DNA of 64,000 bases, from positions 248,001-312,000 of the forward strand of contig NW_017566993.1 in NCBI RefSeq assembly GCF_001661265.1, written 5' to 3'. This stretch comes from Saitoella complicata NRRL Y-17804. Lineage: Eukaryota > Ascomycota > Saitoellomycetes > Saitoellales > Saitoellaceae. Position numbers and translations under genes: made by a program. Below are positions 11,394-38,727 of this stretch, in pieces; position 1 is the first letter of the stretch, and every line of letters begins with the position of its first letter. A model generated the notes under the pieces. It made no database searches and was not told the origin of the DNA. It worked only from the letters and a program-made list of their open reading frames with translations.

Positions 11394-11529
11394 GAAATTT
11401 ACTGTGGATTATGCTGAATAGGCCCTACGGACGATTTGCTCATGTTATCTACATGACCTCAGCATGTACACACCACGTAAGTTTACAGGTTGTGTACCCG
11501 TGGGAGGTGATGTAATCAGTCCTGTAATC

Positions 11530-11560
11530 AAATTACATGACGACCGTTGTCATGTAATTT
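11530..11560. repeat. Perfect inverted repeat, 12-bp arms
   Basis: AAATTACATGAC at 11530-11541 and its exact reverse complement at 11549-11560 flank a 7-nt loop (GACCGTT). A second palindrome, CACGAGCA-CA-TGCTCGTG, lies at 11704-11721, and further CATGTAATTT words occur nearby. Confidence 0.75.
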
Positions 11561-14104
11561 GCAGACTGAGTACAGAACATTGTGAAGTGTATCACGTACA
11601 ACGAAATCATAGATCAATTGGACGATTGACAGGCTAGCAGCATTCTTTCAACTAGCCAGCCCTACTGAGTCAGCGGTCGTGTAATCGTCATGTAATTTCT
11701 TTGCACGAGCACATGCTCGTGGATTTTCCCTTGTGTAATCTATCTGTGCTCGTGTAATGTCTTTGTTTGTGTAACTCGAGCGACAGCGCTGGTAAAGTTG
11801 CGGTTTTCATGGCTACGACCCGTTCTCATGAGTCGCGGTTCACCCTTGTGACCTCCACAACCGGGGTGCATCAACAACAATTGTCTAATAAGTGCCTCCT
11901 GCTCGATTCCACATGTCATCCCGGCCTGCCCGCACATACCGATTGACAAATTCTGTCTCGCCTTCCGTGTATACGTCGTTCCAAATGACTCCGCCCTATG
12001 CAACCCCACCCACTCTCCCTCTGCTGCGAATTTCAGGGTCTGGTGCCCTTCCAAAATTGCAAGGGATACGGTATTGGTCCCAGAAACTCGCGTTCCTACA
12101 ACTCCCCCGGTACAGCACTGAGCCCATCCCCCTTAAGCTTTGCCTGCCCCACCTATGTATTACATACTTGTACATCGTCATACACCTTCCCCGACTATTA
12201 CCTGCTACTACTGCTACTACTACTACTACTGATTGACACGTATATGAGGAACATACCCGGCTGAGCCCTACCAAGGGAAGGTGTGAGCGGCAGCTGCTAC
12301 CACGAGTTTGGGTCTCCAATTAACATGATCGCTGTTCTGTCATTTACATGCTACCTGGTCCTCGGTTACAGATTTGGTGGTCTGTATGTTATATGACCGT
12401 TTACATGACTGTGTACAGACTATGACATGCTGTTTGAAAACGGAACGGAACACTTCGTAGGGAGGATTGCGGATTATATGGAACAGAATCATGAATTACG
12501 GGGTAAAGACTCATGGTTTGAGTCCCGAAAATCATCGATTAAGCGAGACTTTGTAATCCAGAATTCTCTCGACCGTAGAGTGGCCCTGTGACTCAGGATG
12601 TTAGCGCAGGCTTCTCGTTCGATAGTGAGCGCATCATTGATTTTACACGAGCAAAATCCACGAGCGCTGAGTCCCTAAACCTTGGGATAGTGTTTAATAT
12701 CTGCTCCCTAAAATGCATGACTTTTGTGCTTTGGGTAAAGCGTAACATTATCATGGATAATGGGACCCAAACCTCCAAAAATGTGGCCCATGAGATTAGG
12801 CACAATGTAAATTCATTACACGATGTGGGTAGCATAATCTTCCGACATATCACGTTCAATCCTGCAAACCACGATTCCTATAAGAATCAAGGCCAGATGC
12901 CCGGAATTCTTGAGCAGAGTTTGGGACAATTATGAGGCCAAGCAGAGAACAGATCGAGATCATAGGTACGAAATGCGCCATTATGACTATACTAATGTAG
13001 CTCTGATAGCAATCCTCATGGTTCTTTAATCAACGTTAGCACAAACCTACATTCGTAAAAGATCATGGAATTCAAAATCCTGTTTAATCCATGAGTTTGG
13101 ATGGTGGATTAATCCACAATTCTATTCATGATAATCCACGATATGATTCTGCATGATCCATGTTGAAATTTACAATCCATGTGTAATCCCATGGCCAGAT
13201 TAATCTACAATTTTGAGGTGGATTACATACTTGCCCTAGGAGAAGTCGTGTTTAATCCATGATCTTTCACTTTGTAGGTCAAGCTCAATGGGAAGGAAGC
13301 CCTACGAACCTGGCGTTTGTGGAATCCAGTAGTGAAAATTTCATGTTATGGAAGGTGAGACTTTCTGCTCATGAAAATTCCAGAGTTGACTTGCAGAAGT
13401 ACATGCCGGAAATTCCGTGGCATGGGCGATTGGACCCAATTCCATGAGCGCCAGGTCTATAGGGTGGTGATGCCTCCCATGCCGTCCTCTTCACATGAGC
13501 TACTGGTAGACTCCGCTCCACGACAGTACTCTTGACACACACACCCACAACAGCGACAATCAACATCGACTTTATGCAATGAACGCAGGCGACCAGCTTC
13601 ATCCAGCAACATCCGACTAAGATTAGCTTGGCCGCGAGCGGCGAGGTGCTACGTCTACAGCTGATTGTGCTCAATAATACCGGTACTCCTTGTACACCTT
13701 TTGGCAAAGTCCGCAGCGCTGGCTGTCATTACCCTACGAGCCCCCCGAATTCGACTGTCACGAATACTTGATTCGTGATTGCACAAATATGGAATAACAC
13801 ATTCCACTTTCAGCAAAGGCACTCCAATATGTCATTCAACTGTACGAAAAACATGAATAAAGTGGGAAAGTATTCAAGTAGAGTGGAATTCCAATTCATG
13901 GTGCACGAATACCTTATTGGACGGGTTTGGATCGTGAGGTTGGCTAGATTTCATGGGTCTTTGAGGGTCTTTGAGGTTTTTGGAGGGAGGAGGGTCTTCG
14001 AGGATCAAGAGTCGAGGGTCTTTGATGGATCGACAAGGATCAATGGTCTTTGGTAGCAGTTCTTCGGTCTGCGCCTCTCGAGAGTGACATGTGAGCACTG
14101 CTGA

Positions 14105-16963: not shown

Positions 16964-18780
16964 CTAAATGATTACTATACCACCTTCAGCAAGCTTACGT
17001 GCGGTCAACTGAGCTTCCAAATCGAGCTCCTCGAGGCTCTTTGTTAACGTCGCGACCTCATCCAGCTGACGCTGACGCTTAGCGTCTTCTACCATTCCTT
17101 GCACTAGAAATCTCTGTTCCTCGAGTACCATGAGCTGCTCACGCAGCTTAGTCTCTGCGTCTTCCGAAAGTGTATTCTGAACTTCATCAACAGCGGCCCC
17201 TTGACTGGTCGTCAAAGGTGTACCGGCACTCCGTTGGACCGACTGTAATGGTACAAGGTTCACGCTCATGAACTGTGTCGCCATCTGATGTATCGCTATC
17301 TGAAGCTTCTCCTGTGCCAGCGACTCTGCAGGTAGATTACGGATTCTCTTAGAGATCGCGTCATACTGCGCAAAAGCATCAACGAGACGTCTGCGAAGCC
17401 GCAATGCTTCACCGGCAGGTGGATCATGATTGGATTCAAGATTCCTGACTGCTTGCATCCGGTCAAGTTCTTCGTAAAACCTTGGAACCATAGATTCAAT
17501 TCCCCTCTTGTATTGGAGCAGATTCTGGTCGCAGGTCAGTATCAATGCCACCGTGGGACAAAAAGGAACCATACGTCATATAGCTTGATGCATTGAGCCA
17601 CGGTAACCGAGTGATTCTTAAAATCGTTCTTGCCAAACAATGTTTTTTTACAGTCGTGGCACACCCTTAAGATGATCGGGGAACTTAAAGCGTCCTTACC
17701 ATTGACCGCAAACTCAACGCCGGACGAGCAGTCTGTCGAAGGACTTCCACAGACCACACGACCGCAAACCCGACAGTGATGCTTTCGACGAGAAAAGGAG
17801 AACATGGAGCTGGGCTGGCAGTAAGCTCGACGTCAGGGCGTGGCACATTCAACATACCGGCATATCGGGCAGTTCACGACCGCCTTATCGTCTTCCCACT
17901 TGATTACGCTTTGTTCCAAGGCTTTTTGCTGCGTTCGAGATAAGGTAACCGTGCGTAAAAGGCTAATCCTGGGCGAAGGATCGTGATCGTAGGTCGTTGA
18001 TAAAAGGGAGAGAAGCTAAAGAATGTTAGTAAGCCAAAGACTTCACGTCGACATACTTGCCTTGTGTAGACGCTTCTCTAGACGTCGCAATTCAAGATAA
18101 GATTTATCAACGACTTTTCGACGGAGTGCCACGAACGATTCCGTATGGTTCCGATGGACGGCTGAAGCGGAGTCAATATACAGGTACTCCTTACCGTCTG
18201 TATCAGTATTTGGGGTTGAGGATGGGACAACAGTCCCGCAAGAACCATAACCACCAGATGCTGACATGGAAGTCAACTCGGGAATAGGAGTATCAAAAGC
18301 AAGAAGACCTGCCAGAGACCCTGCGCGATCGAAAGAGTCTAGACCTCTAAGTTTCTCCTGCAACATGGTCGTTTGGAAGGATCGTGCTCGACCCATGTTC
18401 TTTTCGAACCATGACCTAAAGCCTTCCTTCTGCGAAGAAGGTAACTCCGCATGATCAGTGTCAAGATGAGCATTTAATGCCTGTAACGTGTCCTGCCCGT
18501 ACATGAGGTTAGAGCCCTTCATCACAGCCGTGGTCAGTCGTCATACCGCGGAATGATTGCAAATCGGGCAAGATAGTGGAAAGTCTTGAATACGGCTAGG
18601 AGATGATTCCGGCTGACCGTAAGAGCTCAAGGAGGGCTCACTTCCACTGGGAGTAAGCGGAGGCCTTCTCACAGCAGAAGTGTCGCGGGACGATGATGCG
18701 GACGAAGAAGACTGTGGAGGGCCAAGAGTACGAGGAGTGGTAGTTGTGAATGGACCAGCAGATTTGGATCGAGCATGCAT
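16964..18780 (-). CDS. PEP7: FYVE-finger vesicle tethering protein Vac1/Pep7 (rabenosyn-5-like)
   Basis: Exons 18780-18547, 18492-18061, 18015-17858, 17809-17575 and 17524-16964 give 539 aa. The N-terminus has a C2H2 finger restored by intron 1 (CPICNHSADTLQALNAHLDT, spacing C-x2-C-x12-H-x4-H). A FYVE zinc finger follows at about residues 270-350 (NCPICRSMFSFSRRKHHCRV, VCGSPSTDC, CHDCKK). The rest is coiled coil. The protein binds PI3P and Rab5/Vps21 in Golgi-to-endosome fusion. Intron 2 (18060-18016) uses a GC-AG pair, GCAAGT, because the nearby GT donor would break the frame; its branch site TTACTAAC is strong. Confidence 0.9.
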
Positions 18781-33309: not shown

Positions 33310-34635
33310 ATGAACACCTATCCACGGAAGCTTCCTCTGGTTCCCGACACAGCTGCTACTCCATCCATTACAATCCCCGCCGACGACCCGACTACCGCAG
33401 ACCATCCAGACCACTACCTGCCCTCAGCACAACCTCCACAGCACCCTAATCTACTGCCAAATACCGCGCATATATCGCCTACTCGTCCACCGCTACAGGA
33501 CCCTATGAGCATACTCGGTACGTACACTGTTTCTTCTTGCATGTGAAAGTGTCGGTGCACTGCAGCTGCGTCGCATGGGGAAGAACCCTGAGCAGCTGTT
33601 TCGAGACATGGACATACTGACAGTTCTTCTTCTTCAGCGGCATCGCTCAGTATGTCGACGATGGCTTCGCAACCTCCGCCGACTTATCATAGTCATAGTC
33701 ATCCTCCTGCACCTCCTCCTTTTCCCCCGCCCTTTACGGGTCAGCTCTCCGGCAGTTCCCTCCTCAATGATTCGGAAGCCATGGCCTTTGCCAACTTTTT
33801 AGACAACATCGCCGGTAACGACATCTTTCTCTTCCAGCCGGTCTTGCCAGACAACCTACCGAGTTGGCAGCCAGACAAGCAAGGGTATGCCAACGAAACT
33901 ACGGTGCCAAATACCTCAACATGGAGTCAAAACTCGCATTTTGGCAACCAGGCAGTGCCTATGGATACAAATACAAGCCAGAATGGTTACAACGGGATGA
34001 ATGCCCCGGTACACGGCCCTCAGCAGTCGCCCATGCCCAATAACGTCCCGCAAACAAACTTTCCTCCACGGCTGGAAAGTCTGGCACCACTCACCGCCCT
34101 CGCCGACATGCGAACGCCATCCCAACTCAGGCGAGGCCGCCAAGAAGACTATCCACCCGCCAAAGCCGAATGCACGGATACGCGGCAGCAAGACAGTACG
34201 CCACCCAATTCAAACGGCTTCTCACCTCCGTCATCTACGACACCTACTGCACGAGCCATGAGTCGCTCCGCTTCTGCGTCCCACAATGGTTCCCTTCCAT
34301 ACATGCCCGTGGGCCGGTCCACACGCGGCAGGAAACCGACCCTTAATCGTGCGTTCAATAATGACGGCACGAAGGCCGACGCCTCGGGATCGACGGCAAT
34401 TATCAACGGCAGGCGTGAGAATCTTAGCGAGCATCAGAAAAGGTCGAATCATATCATGTCGGAGCAGAAGAGACGGGATCTTATCAGGCAGGGATTCACG
34501 GATTTGACGGAGTTGGTGCCGAGTTTGAGATTGGGCGGTGATTCGAAGAGTGTTATCCTGACCAGGACGGTTCAGTACGTGGAGGACCTACTGCTTGGGA
34601 ACGATAGGTTGAAGAAGTTGTTGGGTGAGGAGTGA
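33310..34635 (+). CDS. bHLH transcription factor, Ino4-like C-terminal domain
   Basis: Exons 33310-33517 and 33638-34635 give 401 aa. A Pro/Ser/Asn-rich N-terminus is followed, at about residue 330, by the bHLH: HQKRSNHIMSEQKRRDLIRQ, GFTDLTELVPSL, a short loop and SVILTRTVQYVEDLL. The basic-region pattern H-N-x-SE-x-KRR suits E-box binding. The intron is 120 nt, longer than most here; another splice pair (GTACAC to CTCAG just before ATGTCGACG) would also keep the frame, so the join is uncertain by a few residues. Target genes are unknown. Confidence 0.82.
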
Positions 34636-35176
34636 ATGTGGGTAATGCTGGCAGGAGTTTTTTGGTTTTCTGTTGTGTGCTTGTTCTTAAAGCCTTTGGG
34701 AGCGGCTGGGGCGCGAGTTCGGAGTTTCTATTACTTGCTTTCTTGGGTATCTGTTTACGCATGGCGGCGGTCCATGTCAGGCTGGGTTGACCAGTTTGAA
34801 GGCCGGGCCACCTTTATTCTTTCTACACAATTCTTGCTATTACCGACCTTGGGCCGAGGCAGTCGTATGACGAAGCTGGCCCAGGACCGCGGTTTTGAAT
34901 TGATCATGGTCTTTACTCCAGTCATTCCAGCACGGGCGGACCAACATTTAAGGGTCCCAGCACTTGGTCAATGGTGTTTGTACGGCGCGGACCCGCTTGG
35001 CCTTTCAAGAGAGCGCGCGCGGGCCGCTGCCACCACCGCGGCAGGTTTCCTTGGTGTTGTGCCGGTACGGTATAAAGGTCCACCGTACTGCCACGTATCA
35101 ACTTCAACGTAGCAGGACAGACAAAAACAACGACTCCCCGCCCTGAATGTCTGCCTCCATATAGCAACCACAGACA
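34636..35176. promoter_or_regulatory. Upstream region of HAC1
   Basis: 541 bp between the bHLH stop and the HAC1 start, same strand. It should hold the HAC1 promoter and 5' UTR. A TATAAAGG-like box is at about 35072-35079 (GGTATAAAGG). No convincing open frame. Confidence 0.45.
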
Positions 35177-36250
35177 ATGACTGATTCCGTCATCTCACAA
35201 GCATTGGACTTGCTCCCGACTGGGACCGTCTCGCCTGCTGTCTCTGCTGTTTCGGACGTTATTAATCCATCACAACTGGCTATGCCTCCGGCTTACCTGT
35301 CACCGGCTATGCTCCTCAGCACCACATTCAAGACAGAGGACGATCAAGACAATGAAGACGACGGCGACATGTCTGCATCACCTGCATCTAGCGACAATAC
35401 ACCATCAAGACCGTCACGTCCACCGCCAAGAAAGAAGGCCAAGACGGCGGAAGAAAAGGAGATTCGAGCACAAGAGCGTATCCTTCGCAACCGACAAGCT
35501 GCCCAAGCTTCACGTGAACGGAAACGCAAGCATATGGAAGAACTAGAAGTGACCAACGAGAAGTTGGAAGCGGAGAATGCCCGGTTACACAAGAGGGTGA
35601 AGGCCGCTGAGGAGGAAAGTGCGGAGCATAAGCGTCGTCTTGATGAGATGGCTGCCCAACTTGCTGCGATTCAATCGAGCCTCTCTGCTATCAATGCAGC
35701 CAGACCGATTACACCTACTACTCCCGGAAACCTCCTCGAGCAGGGAAACACCATCATCCCTGCCTTTCACCCATCACCCATCCGAGTCGATGTTCCTCTT
35801 GTCAGTAAAGCCGTCTCGACCGAGTCAACAGTAGCACATCCAGCACGGATGTCCTATCGCCAGCAGTGCCTGTTGACTATGTCGGAGCTTTACTGCCGAC
35901 AAGCGAGCACCTTCCTCATCTCCACCCTTCTCAACTATACGACTTTTCTTCTCTTCTTATGTCAGAACTCGCCCCTCCTTCGTACGATCATGACGGCTTC
36001 TTCTTCGACGCCCTTCTCGACTCAAACCATTGTTCATATCATCCGCCTGGCGACTCTGTCCTTGACTCTGCGTATGGCGCGGCGCTTACAGCCTGCGACG
36101 ACGCGACGTTCATCTGAGGCGACGTTGGTGAATGAGCTGGGTTTGGGACTTGGTGTGCGTCAGAATTGGCGGTTAGGATCCTCGAGGAACGGCGTGGGAC
36201 GTAAGGAATGGATCGGAAAGGAATACGAGTATGAGACGGACCCTCCATGA
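35177..36250 (+). CDS. HAC1: HAC1/HacA bZIP transcription factor of the unfolded protein response
   Basis: The bZIP is HAC1-type: RPPPRKKAKTAEEKEIRAQE, then RILRNRQAAQASRERKRKHM and a leucine-zipper heptad region (EELEVTNEKLEAENARLHKR). The unspliced frame runs from 35177 to 36250 (357 aa). Removing 32 nt (35864-35895) after residue 229 shifts translation into another frame ending at 36117 (302 aa), with an acidic and aromatic tail including LHPSQLYDFSSLLMSELAPP, DGFFFDALLDS and DSVLDSAYGAALTACDDA. That tail resembles HacA activation ends. Family knowledge says Ire1 cuts and tRNA ligase joins such an intron in ER stress; here it is inferred. Confidence 0.9.
   Translation: MTDSVISQALDLLPTGTVSPAVSAVSDVINPSQLAMPPAYLSPAMLLSTTFKTEDDQDNEDDGDMSASPASSDNTPSRPSRPPPRKKAKTAEEKEIRAQERILRNRQAAQASRERKRKHMEELEVTNEKLEAENARLHKRVKAAEEESAEHKRRLDEMAAQLAAIQSSLSAINAARPITPTTPGNLLEQGNTIIPAFHPSPIRVDVPLVSKAVSTESTVAHPARMSYRQQCLLTMSELYCRQASTFLISTLLNYTTFLLFLCQNSPLLRTIMTASSSTPFSTQTIVHIIRLATLSLTLRMARRLQPATTRRSSEATLVNELGLGLGVRQNWRLGSSRNGVGRKEWIGKEYEYETDPP
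35864..35895 (+). promoter_or_regulatory. Predicted Ire1-type unconventional intron in HAC1 mRNA
   Basis: Both ends match the CNG|CNGN cleavage pattern: CAG|CAGT at 35861-35867 and CTG|CCGA at 35893-35899. The 32-nt length (2 modulo 3) leads exactly into the acidic HacA-like tail frame. It lacks GT-AG ends. Flanking hairpins are weak by eye, and a CTG|TTGA start at 35873 (23 nt, same frame) is an alternative left edge. Confidence 0.65.
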
Positions 36251-36935
36251 GGTGGGATACGAGGCGAGGAATGGGATATGGGATTGGTTTCGAGGGAAAT
36301 CTGGGCTCGGTGTTTTTCTTGTTTCTTCTTCTACATAGCGTTATCTTCTCAAGAATTCTTGAGGGGGCGGAACTTCTGTCAGTTGTACCTCTTAAAGACA
36401 ACTGACAAGCAATTGAATACCATCATCTTCTTGCTCTAAACGATTGCACTTGCGATTTTCTCCGATCATACATCTCGTACACTGTGTTCCTTCGAGAGGA
36501 GCGGGGAGTGGCTGAGCGCGGGAGCCGCCCATGTCTCGGCCTCAGCTCGTCCCCTTTGTACGGCATGTCAAGCAGTGACGTCCCTTTGTGAGGATCAATG
36601 CGAAGAAGAAGAAGAATGAATGCTACGTCTATGTCTTTGCCGCTTGCCGTTTGACGCCCAGCAACGATGCTCCTCTTCAATCTCGTCTCTCGACACCGCC
36701 GCTGCGCATCCAGATACAAATACACCGGCTTGATTGCACGCACGGGCCTCCCTCCCGAGCCTCTGAGCAGGTCACCACTATCAAACGTCTGAGCCGCATC
36801 AAGGAGGCAACCGCAATCTATACCCACAGTCGTCTTTCTGTGTGACATCTGATACCGTCTAAGTCCCCGACACTCCCTACCTTCGTTCACAGCAGCCCGA
36901 CCTTCGTTTGTCCCGCATACTTACCATCATTTGCC
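36251..36935. other. Intergenic region, no gene seen
   Basis: 3' flank of HAC1 and promoter of the amylase gene. A near-palindrome (AGTTGTACCTCTTAAAGACAACT, about 36380-36402) could be a terminator-like hairpin. Open frames here lack recognisable content. Confidence 0.4.
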
Positions 36936-38727
36936 ATGAGATTCGCCATTCCAGCACTGCTTGCCAACATTCTGGCACCGTCTATTGCGTTGGCAGCTCA
37001 TGCGGCTCAATGGCGCGAGAAGCCGATTTATCAGGTTTGTACCCTGTTATCGGCGTGTGATGGTCTTTGCTAACAGTCGCTTTCACAGGTGATCACAGAT
37101 CGTTTTGCTCGAGAAGATAATGCGACGACCAGTGTCATCTGCGATTCTGGTACAGACATTTACTGTGGAGGATCGTGGCAGGGGATTATCAATCAGTTGG
37201 ACTACATCCAGGATATGGGATTTGGAGGTATCTGGATTTCACCAATTGTGAAGAATATCGAGAACTACACGCAGTATGGGTGGGCATATCACGGTAAGGC
37301 TACCATAATATCACGGACGTAGTGCATGGCTAACAGGCAACACAGGCTACTGGGTGCAAGATTATTACGCATTGAACCCTCACTTCGGTAATGAGAGCGA
37401 CCTCATCGCCCTCTCTGACGCCCTCCATGCCCGTGACATGTATCTCATGGTCGATATCATCGTGAACGACTATGCCCAAGCAGCGTTCTACCACAACTCT
37501 CCTGACAGTCGCAACATCGACTACTCCCAATTCCACCCCTTTAACAAGGAAGAGTACTTCCATCCGTGGTGTTGGGCGGACTTCTCAAACCAGACCAGTA
37601 CGGAAGACTGCTGGACGGGTGACATCAATGTTCCCTTGCCTGATCTGAATCAGTCAATTCCGTACGTGCATGATACCTTGTTGGAGTGGATTGCGGAGGT
37701 GGTTAGCAATTACTCCGTGGATGGTATCCGTCTTGATGCAGTGAAATCCGTGCCGATCGAGTTCTGGCATGACTTCAACAAATCATCTAACGTTTACAAC
37801 CTCGGTGAGAACTTCGATGGTGACGCGTCCTATGTCTGCAACTATCAGAACAAGTCGATGGATGGCTTGCTCAACTATCCGATGTACGGTACTGTCCTCA
37901 CGGCATTCTCAGCAACCAATGGCAGTTTCGAGAGCCTGAATGCAATGATCGCGACAATGCAGGAAGAATGCGTGGATCCGACTACTATGGGCAACTTCTT
38001 GGAGAACCAGGATACGCCCAGGTTTTGCTCTTTCACCAATGACCGCAGTCTTTACTTGAATGCGTTGACCTGGAACTTCTTGTCCGACGGAATTCCCATT
38101 CTTTACTACGGTCAAGAACACTATTTCAACGGCACCGCTGATCCCTACAACCGTGAAGGCTTCTTCTCGACTGGTTACAACAGATCATCAGAGGCATACG
38201 CCCAAATCCGCTCGCTCAACCTTTTCCGCCAGAAAGCAACGGCTGACGACGCGACTTTCCTCGAGACCTACGGTTCAGCTCAGGCTGTCAATGGTGACAG
38301 AAGCATGGGATACGTCAAGGGCGATGTTGTTATTCTGTTCAACAACTACGGCGAGGATGCTACTGATATCCCATCATCGGCTGTCAGCTTGAAGACGTCC
38401 TGGAGCAATGGTGACAGTGTCACGGAGATCTTGACGGGGACGACATATACCGTTGGTGCGAGTGGCGCTTTGAGTGTGAAGTATCCCTCCAACGGATGGC
38501 CGCAGGTTTTCTACCCTACGTCACAGCTCGGATCAGACAACTTTGTACCTACGATTCAAAAGACGCCAAAACTGATTCAAACGGCAACGTCCACCAGTAC
38601 GGGGTCTTCGGCGACCGGTGGAAGTGGATCTAGTAGCGGAGCTGTTGCGGTCGGAAAGATGGGCGTTGAAGCAGGGCTTTATGCCGCGATCATGGCAGCG
38701 GTGTTTGGAGGTATCTTGGTACTCTAG
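36936..38727 (+). CDS. GPI-anchored alpha-amylase-family protein (GH13)
   Basis: Exons 36936-37034, 37089-37293 and 37346-38727 give 561 aa. A signal peptide (MRFAIPALLANILAPSIALA) starts the protein. GH13 landmarks are FGGIWISPIVKNIE, region II DGIRLDAVKS (Asp232), region III GENFDGD (Glu256) and region IV ENQDTPRF (Asp324), so the catalytic triad is intact. Region I reads DIIVNDYA and region IV has Gln323, where ordinary amylases have His in both. A Ser/Gly-rich stretch and a hydrophobic C-terminus (AAIMAAVFGGILVL) form a GPI signal. Such wall-bound enzymes often act as glucanotransferases in alpha-glucan metabolism; this is inferred. Confidence 0.93.

Follow-up and report, generated by a model that had tools for sequence, protein, structure and literature searches.

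The window analyzed here (the whole 64-kb stretch of DNA) contains, on the forward strand, an open reading frame of 357 codons at positions 35177-36250, in which Pfam searches identified bZIP_2 (E 2e-09) and bZIP_1 (E 8.3e-09) domains. The domain lies upstream of the stretch that is predicted to be excised. Since these matches are to generic bZIP families, the label HAC1 depends on the basic region, on a layout that includes a frame switch, and on the RNA structure. Specifically, the basic region RILRNR is identical at five of six residues to the RVLRNR of A. flavus, a peptide translated from a printed protospacer, and the other five A. flavus protospacers (guide sequences) matched three to four of six residues of the protein. 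From the bZIP domain, the frame switch after the zipper and the twin-loop structure, we infer that the gene is a HAC1 homologue. The features of the locus are as follows.

35147 to 35164, forward strand: short upstream reading frame MSASI, 5 codons, 12 nt before the main ATG, found by script
35177 to 36250, forward strand: putative HAC1/hacA-type gene, unspliced frame, 357 aa, from the open frame and the Pfam bZIP matches
35453 to 35647, forward strand: bZIP domain, frame residues 93-157, from the Pfam bZIP matches
35791 to 35831, forward strand: left strand of the predicted exon-exon stem (exon 1 side), from the minimum-energy fold
35836 to 35852, forward strand: predicted 5' splice-site hairpin, 5 bp, 7-nt loop CAG^CACG at 35841-35847 (the caret marks the cut), from the predicted fold
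35844 to 35863, forward strand: predicted 20-nt Ire1 intron, from the frame shift and loops, with seven equivalent registers through the CCAGCA repeat
35859 to 35869, forward strand: predicted 3' splice-site hairpin, 2 bp, 7-nt loop CAG^CAGT at 35861-35867, from the predicted fold
35864 to 36117, forward strand: predicted exon 2 in the induced frame, acidic/aromatic tail of a predicted 306-aa Hac1i, stop at 36115-36117
35870 to 35909, forward strand: right strand of the predicted exon-exon stem (exon 2 side), holding CTGCCGA in and beside a 3-nt bulge, from the minimum-energy fold
36377 to 36407, forward strand: candidate hairpin in the probable HAC1 3' UTR, 10 bp, UGUCAGUUGU/ACAACUGACA, -12.9 kcal/mol, z -1.76

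The upstream neighbour (33652-34635) encodes a bHLH protein whose INO4-type domain match scored 27.7 bits against a cut-off of 27.5, and the downstream neighbour (36936-38727) encodes an alpha-amylase-type secreted protein, in which two or more short conventional introns with CTAAC were read by eye. Another neighbouring protein had its best match to chain 6tz7 (272.7 bits, compared with 215.4 bits for 6tz6), which we take to be calcineurin B of A. fumigatus and Candida, respectively. A second one was best matched to chain 6yw5 (155.4 bits; 5mrc, 134.3 bits), presumably the mitoribosomes of N. crassa and yeast. These two scores hint at an ascomycete closer to the Pezizomycotina than to budding yeasts, but at nothing beyond that. 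The single Rfam match near the gene was at chance level, none reached the gathering score across the 64-kb window, and a tRNA search of the window run with the bacterial code retrieved none.

Two reading frames overlap downstream of the zipper. Frame 2 has no stop between 35809 and 36114, ends with TGA at 36115-36117 and encodes an acidic, aromatic tail. Removal of 20 nt (2 mod 3) leads from frame 0, which carries the bZIP domain, into frame 2, with products of 306 aa when spliced and 357 aa when unspliced. The last 99 residues of the 20-nt-spliced product comprise 13 D+E, a single K+R and 10 aromatics, and the 134 residues of the unspliced tail comprise 8 D+E and 16 K+R. Over 35896-36114 the coding score was 7.12 in frame 2 versus 1.97 in frame 0, and past the frame-2 stop (36118-36247) frame 0 scored 7.00 over 43 codons. 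The scores of frame 2 and of frame 0 beyond the frame-2 stop are as if both tails were kept. Because the unspliced frame is coding-like past the spliced stop, selection may be acting on its long tail.

The open second frame is by itself weak evidence, since frame 2 stayed open in 10.6% of synonymous recodings of frame 0; the fraction for the acidic tail was 0.084. These chance levels speak for a plain bZIP gene without Ire1 splicing, in which the motifs, the second frame and the stem would be coincidental. Against this stands the coincidence of a repeat, twin loops, a frame and a long stem at the place where a HAC1 intron is expected, and we regard a gene without such splicing as extremely unlikely. 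When the frame-2 protein was instead recoded synonymously 20000 times, frame 0 stayed open in 5.8% of the recodings, and openness together with the hydrophobic stretch of the unspliced tail was obtained in 2.0%, values that are suggestive, not decisive. The unspliced tail of XBP1u contains a membrane-targeting hydrophobic stretch. A comparable signal in the unspliced tail at this locus was rejected, as 29% of 20000 recodings had equal or greater hydrophobicity.

The sequence-only reading had proposed a 32-nt Ire1 intron cut at CAG^CAGT and CTG^CCGA, a size distinct from those of known HAC1 introns. Both motifs are present, at 35861-35867 and 35893-35899, the intervening 35864-35895 measures 32 nt, and its removal also joins the bZIP frame to the acidic, aromatic tail that ends at 36115-36117. 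Besides producing the correct frame shift, both sites match CNG^CNGN fully, unlike the 5' site of the 20-nt intron. Three CNGCNG sites occur in 35600-36150 (at 35604, 35861 and 35893). Dinucleotide shuffling produced a motif pair 15-70 nt apart with a spacing of 2 mod 3 at a rate of 2.7% for 35700-35960 (5000 shuffles) and of 2.8% for 35800-35960. Such CNGCNG pairs were also present in about 5% of 161-nt windows (forward strand, 162 of 3192; reverse strand, 158 of 3192). By itself, the pair 35861/35893 is only mildly above chance.

Folding, which had been suggested as a check of both sites, gave a different picture for each. The CAGCAGT loop is predicted to be closed by only 2 bp, with a probability of 0.35, but the CTGCCGA site does not lie in a 7-nt hairpin loop: 35892 and 35900 would close it at a probability of 0.00, with no closing base pair. 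In the predicted fold of 35790-35930, C35893 and T35894 are paired with exon 1, the three bases G35895-C35897 bulge out, and pairing resumes at G35898 and A35899; opening the site costs approximately 10 kcal/mol (from -47.8 to -37.5). The Ire1 of S. cerevisiae requires CNG^(C/A)NGN in vitro (PMC8104961). It is also reported to cut 7-membered but not 9-membered loops (PMC8104961, PMC6037481), and this loop size likewise argues against the 32-nt intron. The 32-nt pair ranked 11th among 577 in a crude pair score, tied with several others. A literature search for a 32-nt HAC1 intron retrieved none. Removal of 32 nt by Ire1 is, in our view, very unlikely. A 23-nt alternative from CTG^TTGA (35870) was also rejected, since no pairs close that loop and its bases belong to the 9-bp inner helix.

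When 7-nt loops whose third base is G were sought, one strongly closed loop came up near these sites, CAGCACG at 35841-35847, with five contiguous pairs and a predicted closing-pair probability of 0.93. The hairpin at 35836-35852 with its flanks folded at -8.8 kcal/mol (z -3.14). The CAGCAGT loop is offset downstream from CAGCACG by exactly 20 nt, and cuts behind each CAG remove 35844-35863. CAGCAGT, previously taken for the 5' site, fits better as a 3' site, that of a 20-nt intron with CAGCACG as its 5' loop. This predicted intron is flanked by a direct repeat, CCAGCA, at 35840 and 35860, 20 nt apart. As the repeat stands at both borders, seven of the 13 cut registers tested (offsets -4 to +2) lead to one and the same product, and the position of the intron is ambiguous to that extent. 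Throughout the 64-kb window, a stem of at least 5 bp was seen for 15 of the 1179 CNGCNNN loops of the forward strand, CAGCACG among them, and for 12 of the 1236 of the reverse strand. Paired loops with frame-shifting spacing, counted by criteria fixed after the site had been seen, numbered two on the forward strand and none on the reverse strand, and only the site at 35844-35863 had the 6-nt repeat.

The two loops differ in how they conform to known cleavage motifs. The 3' site CAG^CAGT matches CNG^(C/A)NGN fully; its two closing pairs are present in the minimum-energy fold, and the local stretch folded alone adopts a different structure. In the 5' loop CAG^CACG, the C at +3 departs from the yeast consensus CNG^(C/A)NGN and from the human consensus CNG^CAGN (PMC8674358). 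A cross-loop pair, C35841-G35847, was predicted at 0.92 and would contract the 5' loop to 5 nt. Coding scores over the 10 codons of 35864-35895 (0.82 in frame 0 and 1.62 in frame 2) leave 20 versus 32 nt undecided.

Both candidate splice-site loops are enclosed by 34 pairs predicted between 35791-35831 and 35870-35909 in the minimum-energy fold. The fold of 35790-35930, a stretch picked after the fold was seen, had a z of -5.16, and none of 200 shuffles was as good. In a fold scan that was not centred on the stem, the locus ranked 7th among 12776 windows and was the third distinct locus, and a coarser scan, whose windows split the stem, left it unflagged (z of -1.88 and -1.66). Most of the stem was retained in the predicted fold of the 20-nt-spliced RNA, which gained GCAC/GUGC pairs (-45.2 kcal/mol, 121 nt). 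Excision of 32 nt, on the other hand, would take out one strand of the stem, and the fold of the RNA so spliced lost most of it with the 3' strand (-24.9 kcal/mol, 109 nt). As modelled, the exon-exon pairing would be able to hold the cut ends. In this it resembles the zipper-like RNA structure that is described as holding the exons of metazoan XBP1 (PMC6037481).

Other ways of joining the two frames were also weighed. When the 577 site pairs compatible in frame were ranked by the crude score, the 20-nt pair came second, after a 221-nt pair running from 35640 to 35863. Such a longer Ire1 intron would have a 6-bp stem at 35640, and introns of 50-500 nt are described for Saccharomycotina (PMC6222058). 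Nevertheless, this pair was rejected because coding-like sequence would be deleted: the model removes 35643-35863, which in frame 0 is coding-like by score up to about 35790. Its loop TTGATGA, moreover, has no C1. We judge cutting by Ire1 at other sites of this kind to be exceedingly improbable. A conventional spliceosomal intron bridging the frames would mean that the acidic-tail protein is produced without ER stress. The example at 35805-35863 (GTAAAG to CCAG, 59 nt) is 2 mod 3, terminates at the same AG (35863) and has a length typical among the candidate introns of the window. However, it contains no YTRAY branch-point motif, whereas CTAAC is present in each of the two introns that were read by eye in the amylase gene next door. 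Among frame-bridging GT-AG pairs, none was found with a donor matching at least three of four consensus bases. A spliceosomal intron would also leave the repeat, the hairpins and the long stem unexplained. We consider it very unlikely.

What the sequence shows directly, namely its frames, its motifs, the repeat and the folds predicted from it, points to a fungal HAC1/hacA gene with an ordinary 20-nt Ire1 intron of the filamentous-ascomycete type at 35844-35863, a reading that we hold to be probable. Cutting by Ire1, exon ligation and the activity of the product are attributed to it by analogy with the family. During ER stress, Ire1 on the ER would cleave the message behind G35843 (CAG^CACG) and behind G35863 (CAG^CAGT), each in a hairpin loop, and the stem between exons 1 and 2 would keep the ends together as the 20-nt intron departs. 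Once a tRNA ligase had joined the exons, the ribosome would cross from frame 0 to frame 2 and make a 306-aa activator with an acidic tail, not the 357-aa unspliced product. Of what had been read earlier from this DNA, a HAC1-type gene with an Ire1-type frame-switching excision into an acidic tail has support from sequence and folding. The 32-nt intron is not, and the claim of a new HAC1 intron size is hereby corrected to the ordinary 20 nt.

The predicted organization closely resembles that of Aspergillus hacA. In A. flavus, A. nidulans, A. niger and others, a non-spliceosomal intron of 20 nt follows the bZIP. Copies of a 6-nt direct repeat, spaced by 20 nt, flank it and make the register ambiguous, and the unspliced frame is longer than the spliced one. 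In A. flavus, the 20 nt absent from RNA-seq reads lie between two copies of CTGCAG, with an ambiguous cut register, and a 20-nt intron is also given for five other Aspergillus species, T. reesei and V. dahliae (PMC11508391). The unspliced/spliced products are 438/345 in A. flavus (PMC11508391), 441/350 in A. nidulans (PMC7044415), and 526/417 in V. dahliae, with a twin stem-loop (PMC8071499). Twin stem-loops also figure in other published descriptions (PMC4488935, PMC7044415). On the other hand, the Aspergillus repeat is CTGCAG, whereas here it is CCAGCA and the 5' loop has its C at +3. Conventional introns of 54 nt in A. flavus and 53 nt in V. dahliae set these genes apart from the S. complicata coding frame, which needed none. 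The likeness to T. reesei hac1 and V. dahliae HAC1 in the 20-nt intron, and to the latter in the twin stem-loop, is drawn from descriptions, not sequences.

More distant systems share parts of this design. The hac-1 gene of Neurospora crassa is described with a short intron, twin hairpins and a frame change to a shorter protein, but that intron has 23 nt and unequal CTGCTG/CTGCAG borders (PMC4488935). Metazoan XBP1 likewise has two hairpin loops, a short intron and a frame switch, but its intron measures 26 nt and its loop consensus is CNG^CAGN (PMC6037481, PMC8674358). The HAC1 mRNA of S. cerevisiae also encodes a bZIP activator and is cut by Ire1, as predicted here, but its intron has 252 nt, pairs with the 5' UTR and is bounded by strict CNG^(C/A)NGN loops (PMC6627864, PMC8104961). 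In the Taphrinomycotina or Lipomyces, the literature search retrieved no paper on a HAC1 intron, and one report gives Hac1 as absent from Pneumocystis (PMC9973273). Pattern searches returned 14 matches in viral contigs and 474 in prokaryote genomes, none of them a relative.

Ire1 specificity is described as differing among yeasts (PMC6037481, PMC8104961). It is conceivable, though on balance somewhat doubtful, that Ire1 here cuts CAG^CACG without a G at +3, its RNase specificity being shifted or loosened (perhaps to CAG^CA) and the long stem offsetting the weak 3' hairpin. The 20-nt intron provides a precise splice prediction for an unstudied fungus, with the 5' loop as a mild oddity. If the off-consensus loop CAG^CACG is truly cut, the gene would offer a natural experiment on the loop bases that Ire1 requires.

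Outside the coding frame, the MSASI frame at 35147-35164, if transcribed, would be reminiscent of A. nidulans and T. reesei, in which short frames ahead of the main one reportedly restrict translation (PMC6627864). A stem-loop with a bipartite element is said to occur in the 3' UTR of HAC1 orthologues (PMC3154848), and the hairpin at 36377-36407 might be a place in which to seek a 3'BE-like element. Elsewhere in the window, the strongest outlier of the fold scans was a 120-nt stretch at 11450-11569 (-50.6 kcal/mol, z -5.56, residual -6.72) that forms a near-perfect hairpin, CAAAUUACAUGACGAC/GUUGUCAUGUAAUUUG, with no Rfam match at the gathering score. The second outlier was found at 18180-18299 (-50.5 kcal/mol, residual z -6.13).
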